Shown here in pieces: positions 15,526 through 42,737 of a DNA stretch of 64,000 bases. The first letter of the stretch is position 1. Every line of letters starts with the position of its first letter. Source of the stretch: Siphonodentalium dalli (Eukaryota > Mollusca > Scaphopoda > Gadilida > Siphonodentaliidae); NCBI GenBank assembly GCA_032622095.1, contig CP136066.1, positions 169,146,664-169,210,663 of the forward strand. Direction: 5' to 3'. Made by a program: the position numbers and the translations under genes. The notes under the pieces were generated by a model, which saw only the letters and a list, made by a program, of their open reading frames with translations, was not told the origin of the DNA and made no database searches.

Positions 15526-16337
15526 GTTATACCCCCCGCAACGAAGTTAGGGGGGTATACTGGAGTCAGCTCGTCCGTCCGTCCGTCTGTCGACCGTCCG
15601 TGGACACAAATTTGTCCGGAGTTTTTCTCAGTCGTTTTTTGATCAATTTCCGTGAAACTTGGCACAGACATCAACCACCATGGGAACCTGTGCACCCACG
15701 TTTATGACGTGTGTCGGACATTTTTTGGTGGAGTTATCCCCCTTTTTCGACTTAGAAAATTTTCGCAACATGTATACTTTTGTCCGAGCTTTTATTCCTA
15801 CATTTTTCGGTCAATGTTTTTTAATCTTGGCACTGATATTTAGTACCATGGGAACCTGTGCACCTGCGATTATGACGTCTATCCGACATTTTTTGTGTGG
15901 AGTTATTCCCCTTTTTCGACTTAGAATGTTTTTTCGCAACATACATAATTTTGTCCAAGCTTTTATTCCTAAATGTTTCTGTCAAGAGGTTTAAGCATGT
16001 ACCTTTATTTTACATGATACTTACTTATTATTGAATTATTCACACTTATGTACTCCGCAGAACAACAAAACAGGTACGGCAAACATCGTCTGAAATGAGA
16101 TCTCGTCAACTCTCGTAGCGTTCGCGATATCTCCTCGAGGCGTTATAGAGCGAGCACTGTGAGTCTCGCATACTCCGGATTAACGTACTTGGTTTAAGAT
16201 TAGGGTTATGGTTGTACACCTGCAATGGGAACTGTTATTTTATTATTTTAACTAAATGTTTACTGACATTCGAAACATCTTAGTATTTTAAAAACAGGGG
16301 GGTATCCGTAGTCCCATTGGGACAGTCACACCTCTAG
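15526..16337. mobile_element. 812-bp element inserted in the satellite, possibly Helitron-like
   Basis: The element interrupts the satellite between TTTT and TTGG and leaves no clear target duplication. It starts GTTATACCCCCCGCAACGAAG and ends GTCCCATTGGGACAGTCACACCTCTAG. The left end has its own small inverted repeat (ATACCCCCC / GGGGGGTAT). The right end has a GTCCC-ATT-GGGAC hairpin about 15 bases before a terminal CTAG, as Helitrons do, but the 5' TC is not evident. Inside, a block of about 185 bases beginning near CCATGGGAACCTGTGCACC is repeated twice. No protein is encoded. Bases 16208-16337 are repeated at 28280-28409. Confidence 0.55.
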
Positions 16338-16442
16338 TTGGATTGTGCGTACCTGGCGGAACCGGCCGCAAGTTAGGAGTTAACAGTACCGTGTCCGCTC
16401 GAGCTATCGACTTGGGGGTTGGAACTTTGGTACATTTAGGTC
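16338..16442. repeat. satellite unit 2 continued, with left 8-bp target duplication
   Basis: Resumes the 353-bp satellite after the 812-bp insertion and stops at TTTAGGTC (16435-16442), which is the left target duplication of the foldback element. Confidence 0.75.
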
Positions 16443-18420
16443 GGGTGTGACTAATTACCGCCCGGGCGCCCCCACGGGCCCGTGGACACTATATATCGAC
16501 GTTATAAGGTAGCGACATGCCACCAGAGGGCAACATAGAAGATTTTACTCGCTCGCTCGTCTCCGGTCGGTGTTATTAACCCCGAAAATGCCGATATTGG
16601 CTAAGAGAGCCCGGTAGATCTCGGGTGATCCCGGGTGTCTTCGTGTGTTTTCGGACAGTATATACCACCTGAGTGTGACTTCCAAATATTGACTCGCTGA
16701 CGCATCCACGGCCGATGTTATTAACCCCTCAAAATCCGGTAAAATACCATATAAACAAAAAGAGCCCGGGACCGCCCGGGCGCCCCCATAGGCCCGTGGA
16801 CACTATATCTCGACGTTATAACGTAGCGACATACCCCACGAAGTTAACCTAGAAAATTTTACTCGATCGCTCGTCTCTGGCCGGTTTTATTAACCCCGCA
16901 AATGCCGATATTGGCTAAGAGAGCCCGGGTGTCTTCGTATGTTTTCGGACAGTATAGTTTGGTGATGCGTGGTAGTGCAATAACACCTGATTGTGACTTC
17001 CAAATATTGACTCGTTGGCGCATCCACGGCCGATGTTATCAACCCCTCAAAATCCGGTAAATACCATATAAACAAAAAGAGCCCGGGGCCGCCCTGGACC
17101 GCCCCGGCACCCCCATGGACCCGTGGACACTATATCTCGACGTTATAACGTAGCGGCATACCACACGAGGTCAACCTAGAAGATTTAACAAGCTCGATCG
17201 TATCCGGCCGGTGTTTTATTTACCCCCCCCCCCCACCCCCAACAATATTGACGGCGTCTCGAAACTGTAAGCAAGACTATAGTCGTTTTTATTTACAAGC
17301 ATACAATTCTCCTAGTATTGCTATGAAATAAATTGAAAGTGACTCATGTATTAATCCCTCAGCTGGTATGTCGCTACATAATAACGTCGAGATATGGTGT
17401 CGACGGGCCCATTGGGGCGCCCGGCCTCTCACGGGCTCTTATTGTTGATACGGTATTTCACCTGATTTTTAGGGGTTAATGACATCGGTCGTGGACGCGT
17501 CAGCGAGTCAATATTTGGATGTCACACTCAGGTGTATTGCACTACCACAGTGCACATCACCAAAATATACTGTCCGAAAATACACGAAGACGCCCGGCCT
17601 CCCCGGGCATTCTTAGCCAATATCGGCATTTGTCGGGTTAATAACACCGACCGGAGACGATCGAGCTTGTTAAATGTTCTAGGTTGACCTCGTGGGGTAT
17701 GCCGCTACGTTATAACGTCGAGATATAGTGTCTACGGGTCCATGGGGGTGGTCCCGGGCGGTCTCGGGCTCTTTATGTTTATATTGTATTTTACCGGATT
17801 TTGAGGGGTTAATAACATCGGCCGTCGACGCGTCAACGAGTCAGTATTTGGAATTCACACTCAGGTGTTATTCCACTACCACGCATCACCAAAATATACT
17901 GTCCGAAAAAACACGAAGACACCCGGGCTCTCCCGGGCTCTCTTAACCAATATCGGCATTTGCGGAGTTAATAACACCGACCGGAGACGAGCGAGCTTGT
18001 TAAATTTTCTAGTTTGACCTCGTGTGGTATGCCGCTACGTTATAACGTCGAGATATAGTGTCCACGGGTCCATGGGGGCGGTCCCGGGCTCTTTTTGTTT
18101 ATATTATATTTTACCGGATTTTGAGGGGTTAATAACATCGGCCGTGGACGCGTCAACGGGTCATTATTTGGAAGTCACACTCAGGTGGTATTGCACCACC
18201 ACGTATCACCAAAATATACTGTCCGAAAACACACGAAGACACCGGGCTCCCCCGGGTTCTCTTAGCCAATATCGGCATTTGCGGGGTTAGTAACACCGGC
18301 CGGAGACGAGCGAGCGAGTAAAATCTTCTAGGTTGCCCTCAGGTGGCATGTCGCTACCTTATAACGTCGAGATATAGTGGGCGGTCCCCAGGTGGTCCCG
18401 GGTGGTAATTAGTCACACCG
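16443..18420. mobile_element. foldback DNA transposon FB, copy 1
   Basis: A 1978-bp element inside satellite unit 2. Terminal inverted repeats are GGGTGTGACTAATTACC on the left and, on the right, GGTAATTAGTCACACCG, its near complement. The 8-bp target TTTAGGTC is duplicated at 16435-16442 and 18421-18428. Each arm is built of about three tandem units of 314-328 bp: the motif CCCGTGGACACTATAT recurs at 16479, 16793 and 17120, and its complement recurs around 17395, 17730 and 18058. The arms face each other across a unique ~140-bp spacer that starts with a C-rich run at 17223. No protein is encoded. An 8-bp duplication fits hAT-like or similar transposases, but the superfamily is not established. 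Confidence 0.85.
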
Positions 18421-18840
18421 TTTAGGTCTATTCTGCACGATAGTGCAAACCCCATCACGCTAGGAGCCATGTTGGCGGTGCGGTCGGCGGGTGTTAATTT
18501 CGGCGTTTTTGCGTACATTCCTAGCGAATTCGGCATAGCGTATGGGGTAATTTATCCACTTCTGCTGCAGCTAGCGACTTGTCCGATCGCCCATGGATGT
18601 ATATGGGTATTCACTGCATGATATAATGTCCATTTGCGTCGTCAGGCAGCCAGGGGAGGTGCCTTTTTGGATTTTGAAGTTAAGGGTTAACAGTGCCGTG
18701 TCCGCTCGAGCTATCGACTTTGGAATTGGAACTTTGGTACATTCAGGTCTATTCTGCACGATAGTGCAAACCCCATCACGCTCGGACCCCTGGGGCGGTG
18801 CGGTCCGCTTTTTGTAGGACCGGCATCGGGTCATGGTTCC
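18421..18840. repeat. satellite units 2 (end) and 3
   Basis: Begins with the right target duplication TTTAGGTC and continues the 353-bp satellite; unit 3 begins at 18511. The unit fades after GCTTTTTGTAGGACC. Confidence 0.75.
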
Positions 18841-18868
18841 TAGGAATCCAGGTTGCTGCTCAGTCGGT

Positions 18869-19170
18869 CAGGTGCATAGCGCATTATTGATATATTATCT
18901 ATATTTCGACGATAAATATAGCATTTTGGGGGTCTAGGTAAAAGGCGGACACATAGTGCCCAAGAGTCCCGGTCCGTCATTCAGACAGCCAGGTGCATAG
19001 CGCATTATTGATATGTTATCTATATTTCGGCGAGAAATATAGCAGTTTCTGGGTAAAAGGCGGACACGGAGTTTGTAATAGCATGTGTATACATCGTGCC
19101 CGTGAGTCTCAGACGGACAGGTGCATAGCGCATTATTGATATCTATATTTCGACGATATATATAGCTGGG
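18869..19170. repeat. three tandem ~121-128-bp repeats
   Basis: CAGGTGCATAGCGCATTATTGAT begins units at 18869, 18990 and 19118. Each is followed by ATCTATATTTCG.CGA and GGGTAAAA. It directly abuts the satellite. The same array is at 32120-32421. Confidence 0.85.
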
Positions 19171-20095
19171 TAAAACACGAATGTGTTAATACCGTTTCTA
19201 TGATGGTCCCCCCACCCCCTTTGTCGGAGAATGTAGTTACAGGCGTGTCATATGCTAAGCCACTAAAACCGACGGTAAGCTGATTCCCAAACTACTCTAG
19301 TTCTCGTTATAGGTGTGATGTGATAAGTGACGTTAAACCTCCCACGTGCTGATTGAATCTGCTATTCAGTTTCATAATATGATCCCAGTGTCACACAAAT
19401 GAGTTCAACGCCTAATTAACCAGGGGTATTGTGGAACATATTATAACACGAATCATTAATAATAAAAAAAACTGTTATGCAACCCGTTAGTTCGAGACAG
19501 AAACAATATCACGACAAACAGTTTCCTGAAACATAATAATATATTATTTAATTAGTTCATTTAAACAATGCTTTCTATATATGATACAATAATGCATTTC
19601 TTCTTACAATATCAAGTAATGGCTGTTTCCTGTTTTAGTTCTAGAACCGACTATTCAAAACAAAAAGCGCTTTAAACCCAATGCATTGCAAAAACGTCAG
19701 TGACCAGCTGTATAAGAAAGGTAAGATACATGTAATACAAATGTTGTGCTTCGAATGGATGCAGATTAAATCATTTTTCATTATAACTCTGCTTTTATCG
19801 ATTGTTTAATGTATATGAGTTCAATTTGTTCTACAAACAGCGTAAAACAATAAAGAGCGTTTTGTGTTCCACATGGTAAAATTGAAGAGCGTTTGTGTCT
19901 CATTGGAATATAATCAATAGTGCAGTTCAATTAAGTTGTGCTTGTTGTTGAAAAACAATGACTCGCATATATATGTCGAAAGACATCTGAAATCCAACCA
20001 ACCATGCAAAAACCTGCGTTCTTCAAAACAATTCCACACTCTTTCTATGTGATGCTTCGTGATCGTGGGCATCATATGCCATGGCGATTTAGGTC
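19171..20095. other. spacer, nothing recognised
   Basis: AT-rich sequence without supported genes; its copy is at 32422-33346. Confidence 0.4.
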
Positions 20096-20253
20096 AACGA
20101 TTCGTTGATGTAAACATATTTTATTCCAATTCTGATACATGTGACACATATGAACATATATTTTGACAATATTGTATAGATAGGTGAATTGGAAAATGGA
20201 TTAAATAACAAGTCCATGGACTTTTATTAAGTTTGCTCCCCAAACGATTCGTT
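20096..20253 (-). mobile_element. 136-bp LINE 3' end with 11-bp target duplication
   Basis: The 136-bp insert at 20107-20242 is flanked by AACGATTCGTT at 20096-20106 and 20243-20253. Read on the minus strand it runs from GGGGAGCAAACTTAATAAAAG to GGAATAAAATATGTTTACATC. The same 3' sequence ends the LINE at 29120-30295, so both belong to one family. It is an extreme 5' truncation by target-primed reverse transcription, with a polyadenylation-like AATAAA near the end. The copy is at 33347-33504. Confidence 0.85.
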
Positions 20254-20697
20254 ATGCTGGAGAGCCGGATATTTCTGAGAAACACCCACGACCCAATATT
20301 ACTTTTGCTCTGTCGTAATTGTCAGAAAGATAAGATCTTATTCCAGTTACACGCCATCAACCACAGTGTGAATTATAATTCTGTAAAACAAAATACGACA
20401 TACGCGTACCGGTAGGTTCGTCGAATCGCGACACTCTGGAGCTCTTCTCTAGTGAGACCACGCCCATGCGTGTTACAGGTGGTAAATTCCAGCACATTCC
20501 CGTCGAACATCTCGCGCGAAGATACGCAAACCACGCCCATATGGACACCAATTATGCAATGTTCTTTGTGATCTCACACAGACTAATGAACACTAATTTG
20601 CGTAGCCCAATGGCCTGCTCGTGTGTGTTGTCAATCATACCAGTCCACACAATGGTCAGTTCGGCAGAATTTCATATATGGTGGTATGGATTATGGG
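20254..20697. other. unique spacer
   Basis: No gene is recognised. Relative to copy 2, copy 1 has 8 extra bases (TAATTTGC near 20594). Confidence 0.4.
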
Positions 20698-21065
20698 TGC
20701 ACTGACACCGTCAACCAAGCCAACCAACAGCCAAATCCAACAGCCTCGACTCCTCCACCACGCTTCCACTGCTTTGCCTCCAAATACAACAGCCTCAACA
20801 ACCGATTTTCATCGAAGAATTAAAGAAAGGGTGAAGGGAACTGCACAATGCATTCCGACCATCCTAACCGGCCTGCGGCCGGAAACTACACTACACGGGT
20901 GCACTGACAAGGGTGAAGGGAACTGCACAATGCATTCCGACCATCCTAACCGGCCTGCGGCCGGAAACTACACAACAAGGGTGCACTGACAGAACTGTGA
21001 AGGGACCTGCAAAATGCAGTCCGACCATCCAACCCGGCCTTCGACTGGAAACGAGTCGACTGCAG
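20698..21065. mobile_element. nested 3' ends of a jockey-like LINE (LINE-J)
   Basis: A 3'-UTR-like stretch (CCACGCTTCCACTGCTTTGCC) is followed by repeated terminal units of about 82 bp. These begin GGGTGAAGGGAACTGCAC at 20829 and 20911, with a diverged one from about 20998, and end GTGCACTGACA. The same unit follows the reverse transcriptase at 33949-34986, which identifies the family. Copy 1 holds only these non-coding ends. The single TGCACTGACAC at 20698-20708 marks where copy 2 has its extra 1221 bp. Confidence 0.75.
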
Positions 21066-22520
21066 TGGCAGTAAGATACAGTGTGCGTCCAGACTTATGT
21101 GTGTGTTTTACATGTTCGTGTAGACATTCTATAATATAGGACGTTAGAGAATAATAATGTGCGATGATGTTCAATAAGGTGCGATAATGTTCAATAATGA
21201 TGTATATACAGTTAATATCTCACAGTTTGGAAGATACCTTCCGGATTCGTTGAACTAGAAATATCAACTGACATTGACGCTGAAACTTTCTGATTTTCGT
21301 CGGGATCCGGTGATGGCGCAAAACAAAAGTGTGATTTGTAGCCGAGATAACGTTGACTTCAGTGCGTTGGGTGTCCAGGACTCATAACAGGTAAGTGGTC
21401 TCCAAACCATCGAAATTGTTTTTTTCTTATACATGTACATGTATGCCGTTCTCATTTGTTAAGGTGCCACAACCTTTCGGGAACGAGCACATATGTAGTA
21501 AGTTTATACATTTCGCAATCGAATTGCCTTTCCACACACCCTATGTTAAACCGTTTAGCAGATCATTTTAGTTCGTGGTATGTCAAAGACTTCGAACAGG
21601 ACAGGGGTCCGAAAAACAGTGAAATTCGCCTTTCATATCTGCCAGCGATTAATTCAAAGTATCCCAGACTCCCATGATTCGGGAACCTGATTTATCTCGT
21701 TACATCACATTTGTGAACGTTTTTTTTTATTATCTACCGCTTTTGCGATACCGGAACACTATTGTTGTTTTTTGTTGGGGACACGTTTTTATTATCTACC
21801 GCTTTTGTTGGGATACAGGAGCATGAACGCTATTTATTAGAGCATGTCCTTTTTTCTGGACTGAGAACAATTCGAACATGTTAAAACTTCCTCTTTTGGA
21901 TCTCTCACTTGTTGTTGTTTTTGTTGCGGACATGGTTTCATTGGACCAAGATATCAATTGAATATATCTCTACCTTAGACGTGATTGGTTGTTCTGACGC
22001 TTTGGTCGAATGCTATCCACGATCAGACATGGGAAGTTGTGTTCTGCATCCATTGAAATTTTCAGACAATTTGGTCTCATTGAGCTGGGACGAGCTGGCC
22101 CGTTTCCAAAATATTATATAATATGTATAACATTGATTGATGCACAACATACAGCCGCCTGGGTATCTATTACACACATCTTTATTATTCGGTATCATCT
22201 GACTGCAGCCACGGGCTCAATCTATTTCCAGTCGGCATTCATATTCACACATGCAGTCTCATTGGTAAGAGATGCAAACTATTGTCACACAAGCTGTGAA
22301 TCTGGCCAAAGTTGGATTATATTACTGAAGTCGGATTGCATAATTATGTAGAATAGTATCGAATTTCGTTTTGTATTGATCATATGTACTGACCAGCCTA
22401 ACATTTATTATACTTACCCGAAATTTGGTTATTATTATACTTACCAGATTCTTTGGTTTGGGTCTTATTGGCTCGGGTGGCGTTTCTAGTTGGACGAATT
22501 TGGGACATCTGGTTATCGCC
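21066..22520. other. unique spacer left of the MULE
   Basis: I see no gene. A TTTTATTATCTACCGCTTTTG block is repeated at about 21723 and 21786. Copy 2 has the same at 35530-36984. Confidence 0.4.
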
Positions 22521-22529
22521 CATATTTTC
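22521..22529. repeat. left 9-bp target duplication of the MULE
   Basis: CATATTTTC directly precedes the left inverted repeat and recurs directly after the right one at 27039-27047. Confidence 0.9.
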
Positions 22530-22793
22530 GATGGTCACTAAAAAGAGTACCCCGGCCCCGACTCGGAGAAAATGTGTACTCGGAAGATATATGTTGCATA
22601 TATTTTCTACTTTATGGAAAAAACAAATTTCTTTTGCTAAATTATATGCTACTATGCCAATTTATTCAATATATGATAAAAATTTTACCGAAAAAATTAC
22701 TAACATACTTTTTAATAGCATTTTTACTTCGAAAACACACTAAAAAGTGTACTCCAGGAAAAAGTGTACCCGAGCTAAATCTTGAATTTCACG
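22530..22793 (+). repeat. left terminal inverted repeat of the MULE
   Basis: Matches 26798-27038 in inverted orientation from GATGGTCACTAAAAAG to TTGAATTTCACG. The main difference is an insertion of about 25 bases on the left side. Confidence 0.9.
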
Positions 22794-23776
22794 CTTCACT
22801 ATCCACTTCACAAACATTAAATGTTGTACAATACTCGTAACAGGTCGTAGAAATATATTGGTGATATGAATTAATTATTTTATGCAGTGAAACATATTCA
22901 ATTCTCACATTTGCCGTGGTGTCAACAAATGTCATACTCCGGCCCGACGCCGACTCGGGGGAAATTGTGTACTCGGAAGACATATGATATAATTGTATCA
23001 CTATTATACGAATAATTTATTATTTCAACGTCGGGGTTTTTAAATTCAGTGTCTTTTGGTTCATTTTAACTCCCCTCATCCTTTATCTGGGCTTGGGACC
23101 AGCAGACTTCGTGGAAGTCAGGCGGATTTAAAGTTTTTGTTTTTGTTTTTGTCTTTTTTTTTAAAGACACATGTATCATCGAACTGTTACACGTTATAAG
23201 TTATACTATGCTGGGAGTACCAGCTAGAGTTCTCATTACTGAACATCGGAGGACAAGAATAACAGCAAGAGCTTTAAATATATTCTACGGGAAAAGTGTT
23301 ACTTTAAAACATCATAACTACCGTCAGTGGTAGATTACATAAAGATAAATTTTAGGGATTACTCTATATAGGCCTAGTACTCTTAAGGAGAAAGCGTGTG
23401 GCCCTGAAAAGGCCCTTTTTAATCTTGGTTTAGACTTTCATCTTCATCTGAAATGATAAAATTGAACACGATTAATAGCTCCACCTGAAATTAAACGTGA
23501 AATTAACATTGTTTTAATACTATAAACAGGCTTATCATTATAATGACATGATCATATTCTTACTGATGTCTTGCTCGTTTTCCGATATTTTTTACCAATT
23601 AAGGATGTCCACGTTCAGCGCGGGTCACTAACGGTGACTCGATCCGAGGTGAGTTGGGCATCAGTAGAATTACACTAGTCTGACTACACGTCAATAGAAC
23701 CATGCAGTCACATGTGTATGATTCATCATGTCATTATACCATACATCATAGCAATAAGGCTGAGTTATCATTTAAT

Positions 23777-26389
23777 TCAAACGGAACAGCTCTTGCATTT
23801 ATAATTATTTGGATCACTTGTACATATATGGTGAACCCATGTATCACATTCTTCTGCAGAACATTCTACCATGTCATCGAATATATTAGGCAAACGGCAT
23901 GTGGATGCTGACAATTTGTTATTAAATGCACTATCATACAGTCTAACTTGGCCGTCACTTTCTTTTGTTGAGAGTACCCAGTGGCTGGTTCCGGTGTGGT
24001 GTATTTGGGCACTGCGCTCACCTGTTGGCTGGAATCTCAAGCTGTAGTTCCATTTTTCATTCGCATCATCATAAACTGGAGCTAACCCAGTATGGAACTG
24101 TTCTTTTGTTATCTGCATGGCGAAGTTGACTATCTCGCTGCATAATTCCTCGTTGTTTACTATTTTGTTACGGTGCGACTGTCTCAGAAATTGTTGGCCG
24201 TTTTTAATCCAGATTGAGTCTACATCTTCCACACACTTACTAGAATCTTCTGGTCCTGTTGTCTGGTCGATTGTTTCTTCCGCTATGACCGAAAGATCGA
24301 TAACTGTGTTCTTTACAGCACTTCCAAACTTCTCAACTTTTTCTTTGATTTTGCTGCCGAATGTTTTTTCCTGATTCACTTGTGTCGGGCATCGGTGTTG
24401 AACAAAGTGGAGTTGCAATGATAGAATCTGGTGCAGGTTTGACACACCTCTCAACGTCTTCTTTGTCGCAAGGACGTGGGCATTCTTGTTTGGTTTCTTT
24501 CTGTTATTTCTCGTCAATTGTGTTAGGTTGTATACTTTCGGCATATTATTGTCGTCATCGCACTTCATTCCAACACTCAACTTGGCAGCCACGATGTGCC
24601 AACAAATACCCAAGGCAGGACATACACATTTTTCGTTAGGGAACAATGTCACTGTATATTTATCACCTTTTGACCCATTGACGACAAACGCACCCGCTTG
24701 TGGACAACTGAACACGTTGTTTTGGTCTACTGCGCGTTGGGCGAGAGCATGTTGTGAGGAGATCGGCCTAATGTGTACATCGTCTTCAGCATCTGTTGAT
24801 TCTTCTTCGTCTTCTGAATCGCGCGTTTGTTGTTTTGCTGATATTGTGTGTTTCATTTGTCCTTTTACGAAGGCGACAATATCAGCTGGCTTGATTATAT
24901 CGTCGGGCATCACAACTGTCTCTGGGTCTCGAATGTGGTGTCTATGTTGTGTTTTTAGTTCATAGTCCCCGACATCACAGAAACCTCTCATCAGTTCAAG
25001 CACATGAAACTTTTGTAAGAAATGAAGTGCCAGAACAACCGAGTCCATAGGCACTTGCTTCCAATCTAATAGATCCTTGTACACATAGTTGAATCCTTTG
25101 TTTGTTATTCCAGAATGATGGTTATATATCCCAAGTTCTTCCAGAACAAACCTTCAGCAATGCTCTTGGATGGACTGCTTTATGTTGGCATTGCAATGTT
25201 CGAGGAAGGATGCACTCCAGTTGACACTTAATGCTGCTACCATATCGTCAAACTCTTGTTGAGTTTCGCAACGGAGAAGACTGTAAATATCAGTGCAATA
25301 GACAGCCACATCATCACCTTTACCGCCGTGCTTTCGCACCCAAACTTTTATGTCACTCTTTATATGGTTCCAACAGAAGACGAGCTTTGCGTTTGGAACA
25401 AAATTGGATATCGCATTTGAGAAGGCACTTTCTCTGTCCGTAATTATTATTGGTCGTCCGGTGGTCATGTGTGGAACAGCAGCAACCATTTCTCTCCAGA
25501 AAGTGTCGTGAGTTTTCTGTGTTTTTCGTTCGTGTATGATAAATGACACTGGGAAGCACATCTTTCCTTTGAAAAATGGATGTTTCACTACCAGTGCCGA
25601 AACGAAAAAGTCACCAAGATTGAATGTAGTATCATACGACAATACAACTATCTCGTCGCCACCTGCTGCTAAGAGGCGATTTAACTCAATTAGAATGTCT
25701 TTGTCTGCAACAACAAGTCTAAGCTCTGGGTATACTGAATATTCTAAAACAAAACTATCAAGTGAATAGGCGAGCACAAGTGTATTGTACGCCGCATCGT
25801 GTGATATTTTCCTCTCTTTTGTAGCTAAATAGCGCCGATTTTCTACCTGCTTTCTATTTTTTGCATTCTTGATACCTTGTTCTGCTATTGTGATGTTGGA
25901 TGCGGTCACGCTGTCTCTGTATATCTTGGCTGGCTCACGGTCTACACTCTGCGATTTCAAAGACGACAGCGTTGATTTTAACGTTCGCTTGTGTGGCTGT
26001 TCTGTCTGTTTCGCATTTCCATGTGGGCGATCGACGTAAACTGTCTCGTCGCCTATGTAGTGGACCAATGCCAATTCGTCATGCAGAGAGTTGTAGATTA
26101 CACGTTTAAAACGTGTGTCGCCGACAGCATCTTTAGCGGAGCCTTTTATTCTATAATCACGACGAATCATTACAGGGTCGTTTTTTGGAACTCTTTTACC
26201 GCCTTTGTTCACCCACATGTACTGGTCACATGTTGCATCTTGTTGGCTATTGAGTAGATATATCTCACCACCTCGAGGTTTTAATGGCGGCGTCGCAGAG
26301 ACATTTTCTAAGGATGGATTCTTTAAAATCTCGATAACTTCACGGAAATCTAATAGATCTCTCCTTGTGTCATATATAGACACAGTCAT
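23777..26389 (-). pseudogene. MULE transposase with SWIM, partial Ulp1-like and partial PHD domains; one in-frame TGA
   Basis: From ATG at 26389 a single frame of 870 codons runs to the stop at 23777, broken only by TGA at 25156-25154 (codon 412). Residues 121-187 carry the RPHGN...KNRKQVENRR region that precedes the core in animal MULEs. The core shows D253 (SYDTTFNLGD), D318 (IIITDRE) and C339WNH342. After the TGA, SGITNKGFNY aligns with the usual N..E site but has no acidic residue, so the third catalytic residue seems lost. A SWIM finger follows (CVC...CWH, near residues 588-598), then a Ulp1-like half (HWVLST...VRLYDSAF) without its cysteine part, and the second half of a PHD finger (WVHHIC...CKSC). 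The transposase would bind the element ends and cut them in the nucleus. This copy is probably inactive. Confidence 0.9.
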
Positions 26390-26797
26390 TGTAACAGTAT
26401 AATAAATTTGAATATACTTGATAAGGATTTACGTGCGTACCCACGCTTAGCCTGAGCGGTAAACAATTGAAAATAATTAGCACTTACTTGGGAGCAAACT
26501 TGTCGCTGCCTACCAGGTTCGCTGTCGAGTCACGAATGATGATGATAAACTTGATAATGACGACTGGGTGTTTTATATAGAGAAATGTTTCTAACGAAAG
26601 ATTAAATGTAACATATTTTAGTGAAACAAAATGTAATATGAGTGACTATATAACACCAAACGACAGGGCGAATTACGACATATCAAACTTGTCACATAGG
26701 GCCTTCATAATGTGTTTTATTGGGTAAACAATCATGCATGTGCTGACAGAAGTATAAGAGAATACGAAAGCAAACCTTATGCGTGATAGATTATAAA

Positions 26798-27038
26798 CGT
26801 GAAATTCAAGATTTAGCTCGGGTACACTTTTTCCTGGAGTACACTTTTTAGTGTGTTTTCGAAGTAAAAATGCTATTAAAAAGTATGTTAGTAATTTTTT
26901 CGGTAAATTTTTTATCACATATTGAATAAATTGGCATAGTAGCATATAATTTAGCAAAAGATATGTAACATATATCTTCCGAGTACACATTTTCTCCGAG
27001 TCGGAGCCGGGGCCGGAGTACACTTTTTAGTGACCATC
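26798..27038 (-). repeat. right terminal inverted repeat of the MULE
   Basis: Inverted partner of 22530-22793; followed at once by the second CATATTTTC. The transposase start lies about 410 bases inside this end, so its promoter should be in or near this repeat. Confidence 0.9.
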
Positions 27039-27370
27039 CATATTTTCCTCTACAGTAGTTGCCCTTGTTGACTTGACCACGTTGTCGAGACCTTGATGTT
27101 TTATGTCCAGCCTATACAGCTTTTTGAAACTACACGAAATAAGCCGATATAGGGATTATTTGAATCTGAATTAAGCTCTATGTGAACCTAAATGGGACAT
27201 ACGAACAGTCGTATATCAATTTATTTCAACTCGAAATAAGCTCATGAAAAGTCAGAATTTAATATACTTGTTTCGTCAACACGACGTACCAGATGAACGC
27301 TCTTTATAATGTGTTTTCACTGCGACCCGCGCCATTCAACGAAATGACGGATAAAAGTCCTGTCTGGAGC
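27039..27370. other. right target duplication and spacer
   Basis: CATATTTTC at 27039-27047 completes the MULE insertion site. I see nothing further up to the relic at 27371. Confidence 0.6.
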
Positions 27371-28186
27371 TTATTTCAGAATAAAATGATTTTCTTTATT
27401 TACGAATGGGTGGTATTGGACTAAGTTCTCAACTTGTTGAACATGATATGCAAGGTTGCGGCGATTTCCTTCAACGTTGTCGTTTTTTATCTCTTGTTGA
27501 TATTTGATGTTCTGCACTTGATTTCGGGCCTTGGGGCTGAGTAGACATCTTCTTCCTCGTTGACCAGTTTTCGATATACTTGATGTGGCTGTCGATGCTT
27601 GTTTTTGTCCATTTTGTCCATAGCTGCTTTAGGCATCCTGACATAATCCGCAGACAGTTTAGTACTGTTCCCATGTGGCGCTGCTCCCGGAAATTTACCG
27701 ATATATTCAATCATTGCACGTTTCTTGATTGACAGGTACTCGTGATCGATCCAAGTTATTCTTGTTGTTTGGCAACGGTTGTCCGGTTATCGGCGGTTTA
27801 GATTCTCCAGTGATTAAATCAGTGTAAATTTTCGAAATATCAGCATCATTGTCATACTTTCTGTTTGGCAACGGTTGTCCGGTTATCGGTGGTGTAGATT
27901 CTACAGTGATTAAATCATTGTCATTGTTCGAAATATCAGCATCGTTGTCACGTGCAACAAGTATAAAAATTGGTAGAATCGCTGGTAGAATCGTCACTGA
28001 GTCCCTCAACTATATATATATTGTTGTGTCAAAATCGTTGTCAATATAAACGATTGGTGCTACAATCGTTGTATCGATGGACGGAACGAAACGTACTCCT
28101 CTGGTCACTGGTCGGTTGGCTGGTTGGGGCGTAGGATATTCCGGTTTTTCCAGTATTGTTGGATCAATGACTTGTGGCGTAGACAT
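27371..28186 (-). pseudogene. relic of a second MULE transposase, N-terminal part
   Basis: The minus strand encodes three broken pieces. From ATG at 28186 a frame runs to 27707 with one internal TAG at 28012-28010. It contains a duplicated ~33-residue repeat (DNDADIS...LIT.ES.PPITGQPLPN). A second frame from ATG at 27714 overlaps it by 8 bases and carries APHGNSTK, YVRMPKAAMDKM and VYSAPR. After a frameshift near 27530, the sequence continues NQVQNIKYQQ...NLAYHVQQVENLVQYHPF to a stop at 27371. The order HGN, Y.R, PR..QVQN, HPF matches the region before the catalytic core of animal MULE transposases, including the one next door (RPHGNAK...NRKQVENRR). It lies outside that element's target duplication, so it is a separate, older element. 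No core or ends were found. Confidence 0.6.
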
Positions 28187-29124
28187 GTTGCTCGGCTTGT
28201 CCTTATTTTGCAGAACGACGAAGTGAGTGGTATAATAATGTCCCTAAAAAGAAAGATATATTACATTTGAGATTTAAAAATGGTTGTACACCTGCAATGG
28301 GAACTGTTATTTTATTATTTTAACTAAATGTTTACTGACATTCGAAACATCTTAGTATTTTAAAAACAGGGGGGTATCCGTAGTCCCATTGGGACAGTCA
28401 CACCTCTAGTTGGATTGTGCGTACCTGGCGGAACCGGCCGCAAGTTAGGAGTTAACAGTACCGTGTCCGCTCGAGCTATCGACTTGGGGGTTGGAACTTT
28501 GGTACATTTAGGTCGGGTGTGACTAATTACCGCCCGGGCGCCCCCACGGGCCCGTGGACACTATATATCGACGTTATAAGGTAGCGACATGCCACCAGAG
28601 GGCAACATAGAAGATTTTACTCGCTCGCTCGTCTCCGGTCGGTGTTATTAACCCCGAAAATGCCGATATTGGCTAAGAGAGCCCGGTAGATCTCGGGTGA
28701 TCCCGGGTGTCTTCGTGTGTTTTCGGACAGTATATACCACCTGAGTGTGACTTCCAAATATTGACTCGCTGACGCATCCACGGCCGATGTTATTAACCCC
28801 TCAAAATCCGGTAAAATACCATATAAACAAAAAGAGCCCGGGACCGCCCGGGCGCCCCCATAGGCCCGTGGACACTATATCTCGACGTTATAACGTAGCG
28901 ACATACCCCACGAAGTTAACCTAGAAAATTTTACTCGATCGCTCGTCTCTGGCCGGTTTTATTAACCCCGCAAATGCCGATATTGGCTAAGAGAGCCCGG
29001 GTGTCTTCGTATGTTTTCGGACAGTATAGTTTGGTGATGCGTGGTAGTGCAATAACACCTGATTGTGACTTCCAAATATTGACTCGTTGGCGCATCCACG
29101 GCCGATGTTATCAACCCCTTTAAA

Positions 29125-29700
29125 ATGATCAAAGGAACAGCACCATCTATACTGAGAAATCTCGTACGCCCAGTTGATTCTTACGATACCGGTTATAACT
29201 TCCGTTTTGAGCACATAAGGTTGCCACCCGATATCTCGTACAACTATTACATGAATTCATTTTTGCCATCTGCTATAAGTGAGTGGAACTCTCTGCCTGA
29301 CACAATACGCAATTGTAATACAATTGATGACTTCAAAAAATCACTAAACGCAAGCACACGGCGCCCCCCAACCTACTACTACCACAATAAGTGTCGCAGA
29401 TCACATATACTTCACTCTCGCTTAAGATTAAAATGCAGTAGTTTGAACTCTGACTTATTGAGTAATCACATTAAAACGTCCCCTCTCTGTCATTGTGGCA
29501 AAATAGAAACAGCACATCACTTCTTATTGGAATGTCCTGAATACAATGGCCAAAGGACTGAACTTATATGCGCCATACCGAATGTTATTTTATCAGAACA
29601 AACTCTTTTGTGCGGATCACAGGAACTCAGCCATCGTGATAATATTAAAATATTTGACGCGGTCCAAAGATATATTTTGAAAACAAAGCGATTTTCATAA
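29125..29700 (+). CDS. C-terminal part of LINE ORF2 protein
   Basis: 191 codons, open to a TAA at 29700. It contains the LPSAISEWNSLPDTIRNC region near residue 50, typical just after the reverse transcriptase in CR1/L2/jockey LINEs. A C122-x-C124...H131...C137 cluster (LCHCGKIETAHHFLLECP) is the usual C-terminal zinc-binding motif. The endonuclease and reverse transcriptase are missing through 5' truncation, so the piece has no independent function. The ATG is internal and probably irrelevant. The intact frame implies recent insertion. Confidence 0.85.
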   Translation: MIKGTAPSILRNLVRPVDSYDTGYNFRFEHIRLPPDISYNYYMNSFLPSAISEWNSLPDTIRNCNTIDDFKKSLNASTRRPPTYYYHNKCRRSHILHSRLRLKCSSLNSDLLSNHIKTSPLCHCGKIETAHHFLLECPEYNGQRTELICAIPNVILSEQTLLCGSQELSHRDNIKIFDAVQRYILKTKRFS

Positions 29701-29886
29701 GGATATGATAGGTACACACACTTCGTGAAAAGCATGGAATATTACCGCTAAGCGCGGAACTTACCCGCCCCAGATCGTCTGACATCTCACGGCGACGGGC
29801 GTAGCAATGACACAAACAATAGTATATGTACAGCATTGTAACCAATCAGCTGCAACTGAATTACATCCTCACTTTACCCAGACAGT

Positions 29887-29891
<5 letters not shown>

Positions 29892-29963
<72 letters not shown>

Positions 29964-29995
29964 TTCCGTCTTCTTTCACCCTTTCTCTCTTTCTC

Positions 29996-30041
<46 letters not shown>
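29892..30041. repeat. (CT)n and (TA)n runs in the LINE 3' region
   Basis: A CT run of about 70 bases, a short CCGTCTTCTTTC bridge and TA repeats of about 45 bases. Confidence 0.9.
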
Positions 30042-30042
<1 letters not shown>

Positions 30043-32119
30043 CTTCCTGTCTATCATAACATCATCATTACTATTATTATTATTATAATATTTCCATTCC
30101 TTCCCGTCTGACCCCCCTCTACACTTAATGAAGAGTGGGCGCGAAAAAAAAAGGGAGCAAACTTAACAAAAGCCCTTGGGCTTGTTGTTTAATCCCTTTT
30201 CCAATCCAACAATCATTTATCCTATTCTGTTTTTATTGTCAACACTTTGTCAAATGTATATATGTTATTATGATTGGAATAAAATATGTTTACATCAAAA
30301 TCCGGTAAATACCATATAAACAAAAAGAGCCCGGGGCCGCCCTGGACCGCCCCGGCACCCCCATGGACCCGTGGACACTATATCTCGACGTTATAACGTA
30401 GCGGCATACCACACGAGGTCAACCTAGAAGATTTAACAAGCTCGATCGTATCCGGCCGGTGTTTTATTTACCCCCCCCCCCCCCACCCCCAACAATATTG
30501 ACGGCGTCTCGAAACTGTAAGCAAGACTATAGTCGTTTTTATTTACAAGCATACAATTCTCCTAGTATTGCTATGAAATAAATTGAAAGTGACTCATGTA
30601 TTAATCCCTCAGCTGGTATGTCGCTACATAATAACGTCGAGATATGGTGTCGACGGGCCCATTGGGGCGCCCGGCCTCTCACGGGCTCTTATTGTTGATA
30701 CGGTATTTCACCTGATTTTTAGGGGTTAATGACATCGGTCGTGGACGCGTCAGCGAGTCAATATTTGGATGTCACACTCAGGTGTATTGCACTACCACAG
30801 TGCACATCACCAAAATATACTGTCCGAAAATACACGAAGACGCCCGGCCTCCCCGGGCATTCTTAGCCAATATCGGCATTTGTCGGGTTAATAACACCGA
30901 CCGGAGACGATCGAGCTTGTTAAATGTTCTAGGTTGACCTCGTGGGGTATGCCGCTACGTTATAACGTCGAGATATAGTGTCTACGGGTCCATGGGGGTG
31001 GTCCCGGGCGGTCTCGGGCTCTTTATGTTTATATTGTATTTTACCGGATTTTGAGGGGTTAATAACATCGGCCGTCGACGCGTCAACGAGTCAGTATTTG
31101 GAATTCACACTCAGGTGTTATTCCACTACCACGCATCACCAAAATATACTGTCCGAAAAAACACGAAGACACCCGGGCTCTCCCGGGCTCTCTTAACCAA
31201 TATCGGCATTTGCGGAGTTAATAACACCGACCGGAGACGAGCGAGCTTGTTAAATTTTCTAGTTTGACCTCGTGTGGTATGCCGCTACGTTATAACGTCG
31301 AGATATAGTGTCCACGGGTCCATGGGGGCGGTCCCGGGCTCTTTTTGTTTATATTATATTTTACCGGATTTTGAGGGGTTAATAACATCGGCCGTGGACG
31401 CGTCAACGGGTCATTATTTGGAAGTCACACTCAGGTGGTATTGCACCACCACGTATCACCAAAATATACTGTCCGAAAACACACGAAGACACCGGGCTCC
31501 CCCGGGTTCTCTTAGCCAATATCGGCATTTGCGGGGTTAGTAACACCGGCCGGAGACGAGCGAGCGAGTAAAATCTTCTAGGTTGCCCTCAGGTGGCATG
31601 TCGCTACCTTATAACGTCGAGATATAGTGGGCGGTCCCCAGGTGGTCCCGGGTGGTAATTAGTCACACCGTTTAGGTCTATTCTGCACGATAGTGCAAAC
31701 CCCATCACGCTAGGAGCCATGTTGGCGGTGCGGTCGGCGGGTGTTAATTTCGGCGTTTTTGCGTACATTCCTAGCGAATTCGGCATAGCGTATGGGGTAA
31801 TTTATCCACTTCTGCTGCAGCTAGCGACTTGTCCGATCGCCCATGGATGTATATGGGTATTCACTGCATGATATAATGTCCATTTGCGTCGTCAGGCAGC
31901 CAGGGGAGGTGCCTTTTTGGATTTTGAAGTTAAGGGTTAACAGTGCCGTGTCCACTCGAGCTATCGACTTTGGAATTGGAACTTTGGTACATTCAGGTCT
32001 ATTCTGCACGATAGTGCAAACCCCATCACGCTCGGACCCCTGGGGCGGTGCGGTCGGCTTTTTGTAGGACCGGCATCGGGTCATGGTTCCTAGGAATCCA
32101 GGTTGCTGCTCAGTCGGTC

Positions 32120-32421
32120 AGGTGCATAGCGCATTATTGATATATTATCTATATTTCGACGATAAATATAGCATTTTGGGGGTCTAGGTAAAAGGCGGAC
32201 ACATAGTGCCCAAGAGTCCCGGTCCGTCATTCAGACAGCCAGGTGCATAGCGCATTATTGATATGTTATCTATATTTCGGCGAGAAATATAGCAGTTTCT
32301 GGGTAAAAGGCGGACACGGAGTTTGTAATAGCATGTGTATACATCGTGCCCGTGAGTCTCAGACGGACAGGTGCATAGCGCATTATTGATATCTATATTT
32401 CGACGATATATATAGCTGGGT
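32120..32421. repeat. three tandem ~121-128-bp repeats, copy 2
   Basis: Exact counterpart of 18869-19170. Confidence 0.85.
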
Positions 32422-33346
32422 AAAACACGAATGTGTTAATACCGTTTCTATGATGGTCCCCCCCACCCCCTTTGTCGGAGAATGTAGTTACAGGCGTGTC
32501 ATATGCTAAGCCACTAAAACCGACGGTAAGCTGATTCCCAAACTACTCTAGTTCTCGTTATAGGTGTGATGTGATAAGTGACGTTAAACCTCCCACGTGC
32601 TGATTGAATCTGCTATTCAGTTTCATAATATGATCCCAGTGTCACACAAATGAGTTCAACGCCTAATTAACCAGGGGTATTGTGGAACATATTATAACAC
32701 GAATCATTAATAATAAAAAAAACTGTTATGCAACCCGTTAGTTCGAGACAGAAACAATATCACGACAAACAGTTTCCTGAAACATAATAATATATTATTT
32801 AATTAGTTCATTTAAACAATGCTTTCTATATATGATACAATAATGCATTTCTTCTTACAATATCAAGTAATGGCTGTTTCCTGTTTTAGTTCTAGAACCG
32901 ACTATTCAAAACAAAAAGCGCTTTAAACCCAATGCATTGCAAAAACGTCAGTGACCAGCTGTATAAGAAAGGTAAGATACATGTAATACAAATGTTGTGC
33001 TTCGAATGGATGCAGATTAAATCATTTTTCATTATAACTCTGCTTTTATCGATTGTTTAATGTATATGAGTTCAATTTGTTCTACAAACAGCGTAAAACA
33101 ATAAAGAGCGTTTTGTGTTCCACATGGTAAAATTGAAGAGCGTTTGTGTCTCATTGGAATATAATCAATAGTGCAGTTCAATTAAGTTGTGCTTGTTGTT
33201 GAAAAACAATGACTCGCATATATATGTCGAAAGACATCTGAAATCCAACCAACCATGCAAAAACCTGCGTTCTTCAAAACAATTCCACACTCTTTCTATG
33301 TGATGCTTCGTGATCGTGGGCATCATATGCCATGGCGATTTAGGTC

Positions 33347-33504
33347 AACGATTCGTTGATGTAAACATATTTTATTCCAATTCTGATACATGTGACACAT
33401 ATGAACATATATTTTGACAATATTGTATAGATAGGTGAATTGGAAAATGGATTAAATAACAAGTCCATGGACTTTTATTAAGTTTGCTCCCCAAACGATT
33501 CGTT
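33347..33504 (-). mobile_element. 136-bp LINE 3' end with target duplication, copy 2
   Basis: Counterpart of 20096-20253, with AACGATTCGTT at 33347-33357 and 33494-33504. Confidence 0.85.
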
Positions 33505-33940
33505 ATGCTGGAGAGCCGGATATTTCTGAGAAACACCCACGACCCAATATTACTTTTGCTCTGTCGTAATTGTCAGAAAGATAAGATCTTATTCCAGTTA
33601 CACGCCATCAACCACAGTGTGAATTATAATTCTGTAAAACAAAATACGACATACGCGTACCGGTAGGTTCGTCGAATCGCGACACTCTGGAGCTCTTCTC
33701 TAGTGAGACCACGCCCATGCGTGTTACAGGTGGTAAATTCCAGCACATTCCCGTCGAACATCTCGCGCGAAGATACGCAAACCACGCCCATATGGACACC
33801 AATTATGCAATGTTCTTTGTGATCTCACACAGACTAATGAACACGTAGCCCAATGGCCTGCTCGTGTGTGTTGTCAATCATACCAGTCCACACAATGGTC
33901 AGTTCGGCAGAATTTCATATATGGTGGTATGGATTATGGG

Positions 33941-36984: not shown

Positions 36985-36993
36985 CATATTTTC

Positions 36994-39900
36994 GATGGTC
37001 ACTAAAAAGAGTACCCCGGCCCCGACTCGGAGAAAATGTGTACTCGGAAGATATATGTTGCATATATTTTCTACTTTATGGAAAAACAAATTTCTTTTGC
37101 TAAATTATATGCTACTATGCCAATTTATTCAATATATGATAAAAATTTTACCGAAAAAATTACTAACATACTTTTTAATAGCATTTTTACTTCGAAAACA
37201 CACTAAAAAGTGTACTCCAGGAAAAAGTGTACCCGAGCTAAATCTTGAATTTCACGCTTCACTATCCACTTCACAAACATTAAATGTTGTACAATACTCG
37301 TAACAGGTCGTAGAAATATATTGGTGATATGAATTAATTATTTTATGCAGTGAAACATATTCAATTCTCACATTTGCCGTGGTGTCAACAAATGTCATAC
37401 TCCGGCCCGACGCCGACTCGGGGGAAATTGTGTACTCGGAAGACATATGATATAATTGTATCACTATTATACGAATAATTTATTATTTCAACGTCGGGGT
37501 TTTTAAATTCAGTGTCTTTTGGTTCATTTTAACTCCCCTCATCCTTTATCTGGGCTTGGGACCAGCAGACTTCGTGGAAGTCAGGCGGATTTAAAGTTTT
37601 TGTTTTTGTTTTTGTCTTTTTTTTTAAAGACACATGTATCATCGAACTGTTACACGTTATAAGTTATACTATGCTGGGAGTACCAGCTAGAGTTCTCATT
37701 ACTGAACATCGGAGGACAAGAATAACAGCAAGAGCTTTAAATATATTCTACGGGAAAAGTGTTACTTTAAAACATCATAACTACCGTCAGTGGTAGATTA
37801 CATAAAGATAAATTTTAGGGATTACTCTATATAGGCCTAGTACTCTTAAGGAGAAAGCGTGTGGCCCTGAAAAGGCCCTTTTTAATCTTGGTTTAGACTT
37901 TCATCTTCATCTGAAATGATAAAATTGAACACGATTAATAGCTCCACCTGAAATTAAACGTGAAATTAACATTGTTTTAATACTATAAACAGGCTTATCA
38001 TTATAATGACATGATCATATTCTTACTGATGTCTTGCTCGTTTTCCGATATTTTTTACCAATTAAGGATGTCCACGTTCAGCGCGGGTCACTAACGGTGA
38101 CTCGATCCGAGGTGAGTTGGGCATCAGTAGAATTACACTAGTCTGACTACACGTCAATAGAACCATGCAGTCACATGTGTATGATTCATCATGTCATTAT
38201 ACCATACATCATAGCAATAAGGCTGAGTTATCATTTAATTCAAACGGAACAGCTCTTGCATTTATAATTATTTGGATCACTTGTACATATATGGTGAACC
38301 CATGTATCACATTCTTCTGCAGAACATTCTACCATGTCATCGAATATATTAGGCAAACGGCATGTGGATGCTGACAATTTGTTATTAAATGCACTATCAT
38401 ACAGTCTAACTTGGCCGTCACTTTTTTTTGTTGAGAGTACCCAGTGGCTGGTTCCGGTGTGGTGTATTTGGGCACTGCGCTCACCTGTTGGCTGGAATCT
38501 CAAGCTGTAGTTCCATTTTTCATTCGCATCATCATAAACTGGAGCTAACCCAGTATGGAACTGTTCTTTTGTTATCTGCATGGCGAAGTTGACTATCTCG
38601 CTGCATAATTCCTCGTTGTTTACTATTTTGTTACGGTGCGACTGTCTCAGAAATTGTTGGCCGTTTTTAATCCAGATTGAGTCTACATCTTCCACATACT
38701 TACTAGAATCTTCTGGTCCTGTTGTCTGGTCGATTGTTTCTTCCGCTATGACCGAAAGATCGATAACTGTGTTCTTTACAGCACTTCCAAACTTCTCAAC
38801 TTTTTCTTTGATTTTGCTGCCGAATGTTTTTTCCTGATTCACTTGTGTCGGGCATCGGTGTTGAACAAAGTGGAGTTGCAATGATAGAATCTGGTGCAGG
38901 TTTGACACACCTCTCAACGTCTTCTTTGTCGCAAGGACGTGGGCATTCTTGTTTGGTTTCTTTCTGTTATTTCTCGTCAATTGTGTTAGGTTGTATACTT
39001 TCGGCATATTATTGTCGTCATCGCACTTCATTCCAACACTCAACTTGGCAGCCACGATGTGCCAACAAATACCCAAGGCAGGACATACACATTTTTCGTT
39101 AGGGAACAATGTCACTGTATATTTATCACCTTTTGACCCATTGACGACAAACGCACCCGCTTGTGGACAACTGAACACGTTGTTTTGGTCTACTGCGCGT
39201 TGGGCGAGAGCATGTTGTGAGGAGATCGGCCTAATGTGTACATCGTCTTCAGCATCTGTTGATTCTTCTTCGTCTTCTGAATCGCGCGTTTGTTGTTTTG
39301 CTGATATTGTGTGTTTCATTTGTCCTTTTACGAAGGCGACAATATCAGCTGGCTTGATTATATCGTCGGGCATCACAACTGTCTCTGGGTCTCGAATGTG
39401 GTGTCTATGTTGTGTTTTTAGTTCATAGTCCCCGACATCACAGAAACCTCTCATCAGTTCAAGCACATGAAACTTTTGTAAGAAATGAAGTGCCAGAACA
39501 ACCGAGTCCATAGGCACTTGCTTCCAATCTAATAGATCCTTGTACACATAGTTGAATCCTTTGTTTGTTATTCCAGAATGATGGTTATATATCCCAAGTT
39601 CTTCCAGAACAAACCTTCAGCAATGCTCTTGGATGGACTGCTTTATGTTGGCATTGCAATGTTCGAGGAAGGATGCACTCCAGTTGACACTTAATGCTGC
39701 TACCATATCGTCAAACTCTTGTTGAGTTTCGCAACGGAGAAGACTGTAAATATCAGTGCAATAGACAGCCACATCATCACCTTTACCGCCGTGCTTTCGC
39801 ACCCAAACTTTTATGTCACTCTTTATATGGTTCCAACAGAAGACGAGCTTTGCGTTTGGAACAAAATTGGATATCGCATTTGAGAAGGCACTTTCTCTGT

Positions 39901-41501
39901 CCGTAATTATTATTGGTCGTCCGGTGGTCATGTGTGGAACAGCAGCAACCATTTCTCTCCAGAAAGTGTCGTGAGTTTTCTGTGTTTTTCGTTCGTGTAT
40001 GATAAATGACACTGGGAAGCACATCTTTCCTTTGAAAAATGGATGTTTCACTACCAGTGCCGAAACGAAAAAGTCACCAAGATTGAATGTAGTATCATAC
40101 GACAATACAACTATCTCGTCGCCACCTGCTGCTAAGAGGCGATTTAACTCAATTAGAATGTCTTTGTCTGCAACAACAAGTCTAAGCTCTGGGTATACTG
40201 AATATTCTAAAACAAAACTATCAAGTGAATAGGCGAGCACAAGTGTATTGTACGCCGCATCGTGTGATATTTTCCTCTCTTTTGTAGCTAAATAGCGCCG
40301 ATTTTCTACCTGCTTTCTATTTTTTGCATTCTTGATACCTTGTTCTGCTATTGTGATGTTGGATGCGGTCACGCTGTCTCTGTATATCTTGGCTGGCTCA
40401 CGGTCTACACTCTGCGATTTCAAAGACGACAGCGTTGATTTTAACGTTCGCTTGTGTGGCTGTTCTGTCTGTTTCGCATTTCCATGTGGGCGATCGACGT
40501 AAACTGTCTCGTCGCCTATGTAGTGGACCAATGCCAATTCGTCATGCAGAGAGTTGTAGATTACACGTTTAAAACGTGTGTCGCCGACAGCATCTTTAGC
40601 GGAGCCTTTTATTCTATAATCACGACGAATCATTACAGGGTCGTTTTTTGGAACTCTTTTACCGCCTTTGTTCACCCACATGTACTGGTCACATGTTGCA
40701 TCTTGTTGGCTATTGAGTAGATATATCTCACCACCTCGAGGTTTTAATGGCGGCGTCGCAGAGACATTTTCTAAGGATGGATTCTTTAAAATCTCGATAA
40801 CTTCACGGAAATCTAATAGATCTCTCCTTGTGTCATATATAGACACAGTCATTGTAACAGTATATTAAATTTGAATATACTTGATAAGGATTTACGTGCG
40901 TACCCACGCTTAGCCTGAGCGGTAAACAATTGAAAATAATTAGCACTTACTTGGGAGCAAACTTGTCGCTGCCTACCAGGTTCGCTGTCGAGTCACGAAT
41001 GATGATGATAAACTTGATAATGACGACTGGGTGTTTTATATAGAGAAATGTTTCTAACGAAAGATTAAATGTAACATATTTTAGTGAAACAAAATGTAAT
41101 ATGAGTGACTATATAACACCAAACGACAGGGCGAATTACGACATATCAAACTTGTCACATAGGGCCTTCATAATGTGTTTTATTGGGTAAACAATCATGC
41201 ATGTGCTGACAGAAGTATAAGAGAATACGAAAGCAAACCTTATGCGTGATAGATTATAAACGTGAAATTCAAGATTTAGCTCGGGTACACTTTTTCCTGG
41301 AGTACACTTTTTAGTGTGTTTTCGAAGTAAAAATGCTATTAAAAAGTATGTTAGTAATTTTTTCGGTAAATTTTTTATCACATATTGAATAAATTGGCAT
41401 AGTAGCATATAATTTAGCAAAAGATATGTAACATATATCTTCCGAGTACACATTTTCTCCGAGTCGGAGCCGGGGCCGGAGTACACTTTTTAGTGACCAT
41501 C
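36994..41501 (-). mobile_element. complete MULE-type DNA transposon, copy 2
   Basis: 4508 bp, one base shorter than copy 1 (GGAAAAACAAAT against GGAAAAAACAAAT near 37080). CATATTTTC lies at 36985-36993 and 41502-41510. The flanks match copy 1, so it arose by segmental duplication and not by a second transposition. Confidence 0.93.
38240..40852 (-). pseudogene. MULE transposase, copy 2, same in-frame TGA
   Basis: The counterpart of 23777-26389, with the TGA at the same codon (39619-39617). Two amino-acid differences are visible in the C-terminal half: SSKCVED to SSKYVED and STKESDG to STKKSDG. Both copies lack the acidic residue at the third catalytic position and the cysteine half of the Ulp1-like domain, so those changes predate the duplication. 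Confidence 0.9.
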
Positions 41502-42649: not shown

Positions 42650-42737
42650 GTTGCTCGGCTTGTCCTTATTTTGCAGAACGACGAAGTGAGTGATATAATA
42701 ATGTCCCTAAAAAGAAAGATATATTACATTTGAGATT

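Follow-up and report, generated by a model that had tools for sequence, protein, structure and literature searches.

A defective Mutator-like transposon copy in Siphonodentalium dalli and its wider family with a probable five-part, CG-1-bearing transposase

Introduction

Which kind of transposable element occupies positions 22530 to 27038 of the analysed stretch of Siphonodentalium dalli DNA, whether it is still intact and of which parts its transposase is composed are the questions raised by this locus. The stretch, called the window in the following, comprises 64,000 nucleotides of contig CP136066.1 (assembly GCA_032622095.1, positions 169,146,664 to 169,210,663 of the forward strand). An earlier note had described here a complete Mutator-like element (MULE) with one four-part transposase of 870 codons. 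According to the present analysis, the locus very probably holds a Mutator-like DNA transposon that has become defective and whose wider family encodes a transposase of five parts, namely CG-1, MULE DDE, SWIM, Ulp1-like and PHD. This assignment is carried by the ends and their target duplications, the dispersed copies in the genome, the domain order in relatives and the losses in the window copy, all of which were directly observed.

Results and discussion

Ends of the element and dispersed copies

The features that delimit the element, together with a second copy discussed below, are as follows.

22530..27038, ends not bound to a strand, coding strand minus: MULE element of 4,509 bp, defined by inverted ends and target duplication
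22521..22529, plus: left target duplication CATATTTTC, from sequence comparison of the flanks
27039..27047, plus: right target duplication CATATTTTC, from sequence comparison of the flanks
22530..22796, plus: left terminal inverted repeat, about 267 bp, for which 40 matches were scored in the genome at 92-100%, including the two of the window
26795..27038, minus: right terminal inverted repeat, about 244 bp
22574, 22747, 22764 and 22967 (span 22574..22974), plus: four GTGTACYC sites of the left end, from motif search
26820, 26837, 26981 and 27016, minus: four GTGTACYC sites of the right end, from motif search
36994..41501, no strand assigned: second copy of the same insertion, part of a tandem duplication; 4 differences, flanking 9-mers unchanged

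The inverted ends comprise a 170-nt core that is 98% complementary, and the 9-mers at both outer edges are identical, which would occur by chance with a probability of 0.25^9 (about 4e-6). The element thus shows the superfamily trait of long inverted ends combined with an 8-10-bp target duplication, here of 9 bp, and both features had been read correctly in the earlier note. The same holds true for the subterminal repeat. GTGTACYC occurs 18 times in the window compared to 2.8 expected occurrences, a number reached by none of 100 shuffles, and 16 of the 18 sites lie inside the two element copies (8 per copy, 4 per end), all of them pointing inward. The site at 22967 lies in a partial repeat of the left end that is located further inside the element, at 22943-22989. 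A short stretch at 23060-23150 in the non-coding part of the element adjoins a T-rich run and may represent a nested insertion.

A search of the host genome (2.23 Gb) with the left end gave 40 scored matches among 609 candidates. Apart from the window's own two, these were 38 matches with an identity of 92-98%. From the left-end matches, 20 stretches (L010-L029) were read out, nine of them with both outer termini. Perfect and mutually different 9-bp duplications flank five of these nine copies, while L017 matched at 9 of 10 letters, L012 at 7 of 9, and L010 and L011 at 6 of 8 each. Accordingly, the dispersed family with differing duplications that had been suggested for this element is present in the host genome. 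L010 and L011 lie on one contig at a distance of 1.9 Mb and have flanking letters in common, so that they may stem from a duplication. No match to the CG-1/MULE frame was obtained in the 20 stretches at E 0.001, whereas pieces of the C-terminal frame are kept in many of them; the two-ended copies can therefore be regarded as deletion derivatives.

Coding frame of the window copy

In the coding frame of the window copy (26389-23777, minus strand), a TGA at 25154-25156 separates 411 from 458 amino acids, and the same break is found in both duplicated copies. The single 870-codon protein described before is thus split in two. The parts recognised in the frame are listed in coding order.

25154..26389, minus: first open frame of 411 amino acids with CG-1 domain and first part of the MULE core (frame reading, Pfam)
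26054..26353, minus: CG-1 domain, residues 13-112 (Pfam PF03859, E 1.2e-6, 28.7 bits, cut-off 23.5; E 7.2e-9 when the family alignment was compared with CAMTA3 by hhalign)
25358..25645, minus: MULE (DDE) domain with the first two Asp and CxxH (Pfam PF10551, E 2.1e-9; motif positions)
25154..25156, minus: in-frame TGA stop (frame reading)
25088..25111, minus: expected site of the DDE glutamate motif, Glu absent (motif comparison with relatives)
24572..24658, minus: SWIM-type Cys/His motif, CxCx5CxH (Pfam PF04434 under the cut-off with E 0.033; L054 and L058 show the motif as well)
23924..24217, minus: first half of the Ulp1/C48-like domain, which shows the His and Asp motifs and is without the Gln/Cys half (judged against L037 and L079)
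23786..23899, minus: PHD-like zinc finger at the C-terminus (Pfam PF00628, E 0.11-0.39, below cut-off)

The match to PF10551 lies above the curated cut-off (38.1 compared to 27.6 bits) and, together with the long ends and the 9-bp duplication, supports the assignment to the MULEs. The catalytic triad is incomplete in the window copy: both Asp and the CxxH are present, while the glutamate motif is shortened and comprises no Glu. Using a pattern that does not require Glu, the motif was found at 22 distinct other places, and Glu was kept at all of them. For this count, L063 was omitted as the same place as L054, and so were loci without a pattern match, for example L032, in which the frame is disrupted exactly at this motif. 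Among the 22 places is L080, the frames of which are 94% and 97% identical to those of the window. Since Glu is kept at all 22 other places, its absence can be explained by a decay of the window copy and not of the family.

Downstream of the MULE core, a SWIM-type CxCxnCxH motif is present, while the Pfam score of 14.2 bits lies under the cut-off of 19.6. The Ulp1-like part of the window passes from the Asp motif directly into the PHD-like finger, and 85 residues present in L019 and 95 present in L037/L065 are absent there; in L079, Asp motif and PHD are separated by 117 residues. These extra residues contain the Gln motif in L019, L037 and L079, and the Cys in L037 and L079 but not in L019. 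From the catalytic set His-Asp-Gln-Cys of Ulp1/C48, the window copy thus comprises only the His and Asp motifs, and the window sequence itself gave no Pfam C48 match. The proposed Ulp1-like and PHD parts hold as remnants, as indicated by Pfam matches below the cut-offs in relatives and by the order of His, Asp, Gln and Cys in L037 and L079, whereas the Ulp1-like domain of the window copy is not whole.

Based on the in-frame TGA, the lost catalytic Glu and the half Ulp1-like domain, the window copy is defective in three ways and looks dead. It is very likely unable to transpose by itself, and the description as a complete element applies to its ends and not to its coding part. The ends could still be mobilised in trans by a protein made elsewhere.

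Relatives and the five-part transposase

A search of the host genome with the 411-residue frame gave 106 matches (101 of 382 candidates scored), which, apart from the window's own, are 31-94% identical to the window. Ten of them are located in stop-free open frames of 1,057-1,254 amino acids. We were able to follow the full order of CG-1, MULE, SWIM-type motif, Ulp1/C48-like part and PHD in L058 (1,165 amino acids) and its continuation L079, with Pfam E-values of 2.5e-5 for CG-1, 1.2e-6 for MULE, 0.002 for C48, 0.0003 for a RickCE-like match and 0.0009 for PHD. The four parts stated before were therefore an undercount, as the CG-1 domain at the N-terminus had not been noticed.

Across the relatives, C48 matches range from E 0.001 to 0.008 and PHD matches reach E 0.0009 at most, both below the cut-offs, and the His, Asp, Gln and Cys motifs occur in this order in L037 and L079. 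A PDB sequence search with the Ulp1-like region of L054 (L064) gave a chain with a ULP protease domain (E 0.008) and OtDUB (E 0.011); chains without relation to these appeared from E 0.06 upwards. The copy L054 itself stops ahead of the PHD.

L054, L057, L058 and L059 occupy four sites distributed over three contigs and share 99.5-99.8% identity along 4.2 kb, and the flanks of L054 and L058 are unlike each other beyond the left end. Because of this high identity at four places and the differing flanks, we read the group as having moved recently. Its left end starts with GAGTGGCTAAAATGC, followed by a palindromic stretch, and comprises 5.4 and 4.4 tandem copies of a 193-bp unit (L075 626-1661; L077).

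In an intact relative, the CG-1 domain would grip the inward-pointing repeats of the long ends as putative binding sites, and the DDE core would excise the element and join it to a target staggered by 9 bp. The Ulp1-like part would remove SUMO or a similar modifier, either from the transposase or from proteins involved in silencing, while the PHD finger would read histone tails in order to steer or open the target.

Outside the host, no relatives of the first frame were found in viral contigs (protein and three DNA patterns) or in plasmids (protein), and a DNA pattern search of genome contigs gave one stretch in a bacterium (L001). Compared with the PDB, the first frame showed no sequence relative at E 1.

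N-terminal CG-1 domain

CG-1 is the DNA-binding domain of the CAMTA transcription factors. The window domain, determined from a 124-residue piece, covers positions 7-114 of the 116 in the profile, and even in the whole 411-residue frame 25.2 bits were reached, above the cut-off. Eight N-termini of relatives were sampled, chosen by their similarity to the window; six of them matched CG-1 with E-values from 9e-4 to 4e-8, four above the cut-off. A 49-residue piece from a further broken subfamily, L061, matched at E 5e-8. In BLAST comparisons with plant CAMTA3, this CG-1/MULE subfamily (L061, L062), which is broken into pieces and shows the domain sequence CDGYNWRHY, comes closer (E 5e-10) than the domain of the window (E 1e-6).

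The family alignment comprises 17 rows, several of them near-identical, of which hhalign used 11 (effective number of sequences 2.6). Aligned with Arabidopsis CAMTA3, it gave 95.8% at E 7.2e-9, compared to 0.3% at E 0.21 for reversed CAMTA3. W59 and Y111 are invariant in 17 of 17 rows and aligned with W75 and Y132 of CAMTA3, which are required for DNA binding according to PMC10417383. The AF2 model of the domain showed a predicted local distance difference test (pLDDT) value of 30 from the single sequence and of 81 from the 17-row alignment, and the predicted fold appears to resemble GCM, NAC and WRKY domains, which are among the top structural rows. Among viral models, a structure search yielded no result below E 0.001, and CAMTA3 compared with PDB sequences yielded no solved CG-1 structure.

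The resemblance of the predicted fold bears on an alternative, according to which the element is an ordinary MULE of animals and carries at its N-terminus a diverged finger of the FLYWCH/WRKY type, so that CG-1 would be mere profile overlap without a special link to CAMTA. L041 showed a WRKY match over the cut-off (E 8e-5) on residues overlapping CG-1 and a FLYWCH match at E 0.046, as this explanation would expect, and it would also account for L032 and L049, the closest to the window in the eight-member set (55% and 51%), which gave no CG-1 match at E 1 or better. However, the CG-1 matches span nearly the whole profile and occur in several subfamilies, and against a WRKY domain the family alignment reached only 12% (E 0.0024), far from the values for CAMTA3. 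We therefore consider this explanation improbable and retain the CG-1 assignment. WRKY, GCM, FLYWCH and FAR1 have reportedly been grouped by Babu et al. 2006 as DNA-binding domains of the WRKY-GCM1 type. In contrast to these, the window domain (DQYMWVNKG) shows neither the WRKYGQK core nor the paired Cys/His zinc ligands, and Pfam found no WRKY match in the window.

Several results weigh against a CG-1-bearing, five-part transposase. Besides the lack of a match in L032 and L049, two of the six matching N-termini lie below the cut-off. At E 0.001, a search of the whole genome with the CG-1 family gave only four matches, namely the exon L060 of the host and L061, L062 and L063 as element places, the window not included; most family members are thus seen only via their likeness to the window frame. 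Of the six CAMTA3 sites examined in PMC10417383, only two have a counterpart, whereas W26, H88, Y102/103 and W118 have none, and the GTGTACYC of the element ends differs from the CGCG/CGTG core that the same paper gives for CAMTA. The family profile gave no PDB sequence at E 10, where WRKY chains had been expected. At the C-terminus, the RickCE-like, C48 and PHD matches of L058/L079 all lie below the curated Pfam cut-offs (for the PHD of L079, E 9e-4 and 19.7 bits compared to 24). In the relatives, the two ends together with a duplication could not be located; for the L054/L058 group, the right end and the duplication were sought and not found. The subfamily to which the window copy belongs yielded no intact member, and the long open frames belong to relatives at about 33-60% identity.

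Origin of the CG-1 domain

CAMTA proteins are old regulators of the calcium response and common to plants and animals. A CAMTA-like exon is present in the host as well (L060), with a CG-1 match at E 1.6e-14 and 49% identity to plant CAMTA3 (E 2e-15). Altogether, the data hint at a shared origin of the CG-1 of CAMTA and the N-terminal domain of the MULEs, while the direction could be either way, CAMTA from MULEs or the reverse.

One explanation, which keeps the five-part transposase and differs on the origin only, would be that the element family captured CG-1 long ago from a host CAMTA gene in the manner of Pack-MULEs. MULEs pick up fragments of host genes, as described in PMC6446971 and PMC5225508, and with L060 the host possesses a possible type of source. 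However, the match of this exon to the window domain was not significant (E 2.3) and that to L061 reached only E 0.007, and the element N-termini within this one genome are 29-58% identical to that of the window. Accordingly, any capture would have to be very old and a recent one is unlikely; we regard capture as doubtful overall. With somewhat more confidence, although still tentatively, we propose that CG-1 was originally a WRKY-GCM-like domain by which transposases bound DNA, and that an ancient Mutator-like transposon gave rise to the CAMTA of plants and animals. The host's CG-1 MULEs would then be surviving representatives of this source lineage, and some would have been active until recently.

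Through a transposase family with CG-1, one member of which matches WRKY as well, CG-1 and the WRKY-GCM group may be linked at the sequence level, and the question of where CAMTA came from becomes accessible to a phylogenetic tree. The family further adds a transposon with protease-like and chromatin-reader-like parts within the transposase frame.

Comparison with known systems

Kaonashi-type plant MULEs carry an Ulp1 domain. The present family shares an Ulp1-like protease with them and differs, by description and not by sequence comparison, in being of the animal type with CG-1 and PHD added. As described in PMC5225508 (Muta1 of Aedes) and PMC6446971 (groups of Dupeyron et al.), Mutator-like elements have in common with it the MULE DDE core with CxxH, the long inverted ends with subterminal repeats, the 8-10-bp duplication and the SWIM-type motif. 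In contrast to them, the present family comprises an N-terminal CG-1 in place of FLYWCH or another finger, and additionally the C-terminal Ulp1-like and PHD parts. In the inspected rows of Table 1 in PMC6446971, neither CG-1 nor Ulp1 is given, and a PHD finger for Rehavkus only.

With the CAMTA factors, the family shares the N-terminal CG-1, including the aligned Trp and Tyr. Four of the six CAMTA3 sites are unmatched, the remainder of the protein is a transposase, and of the parts typical of CAMTA, Pfam found CG-1 only in the scanned element sequences, with no TIG, ankyrin or IQ part.

The literature search gave no title or abstract opening that links CG-1 to MULEs or WRKY-GCM; subscription papers and Repbase were outside this search, so that earlier knowledge is possible. 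The name Cg-1 occurs 64 times in PMC3169594, where we take it, unconfirmed, to denote a nematode gene and not the domain. In the main text of the MULE survey PMC6446971 and of PMC13359780 on arthropod MULEs, CG-1 is absent.

Second copy and tandem duplication

The second element copy in the window raises the question of recent activity. The two copies are near-identical and 14.5 kb apart, as would be expected for two independent recent insertions. However, they possess the same flanking 9-mers, differ at only 4 positions, and their flanks are 99.6-99.9% identical over 12 kb. Since 9-mers and duplicated flanks are common to both, the second copy gives no evidence for movement; its independent insertion is refuted by the common flanks, and we assign it next to no probability.

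The stretches 16208-28281 and 28280-42743 are head-to-tail duplicates, 99.6-99.9% identical with a unit of about 12-14 kb, and this tandem duplication (16208-42743) could be either real or an artefact of the assembly. The second duplicate carries two extra inserts at 29127-30294 and 33952-35161, in which a reading of the sequence suggests reverse-transcriptase-like coding pieces; the first resembles the 3' part of a non-long-terminal-repeat element. The duplication itself aside, nested direct and inverted repeats of about 70-190 nt, in several copies that are about 61-92% alike, were observed at 15000-18800 and 28400-32050.
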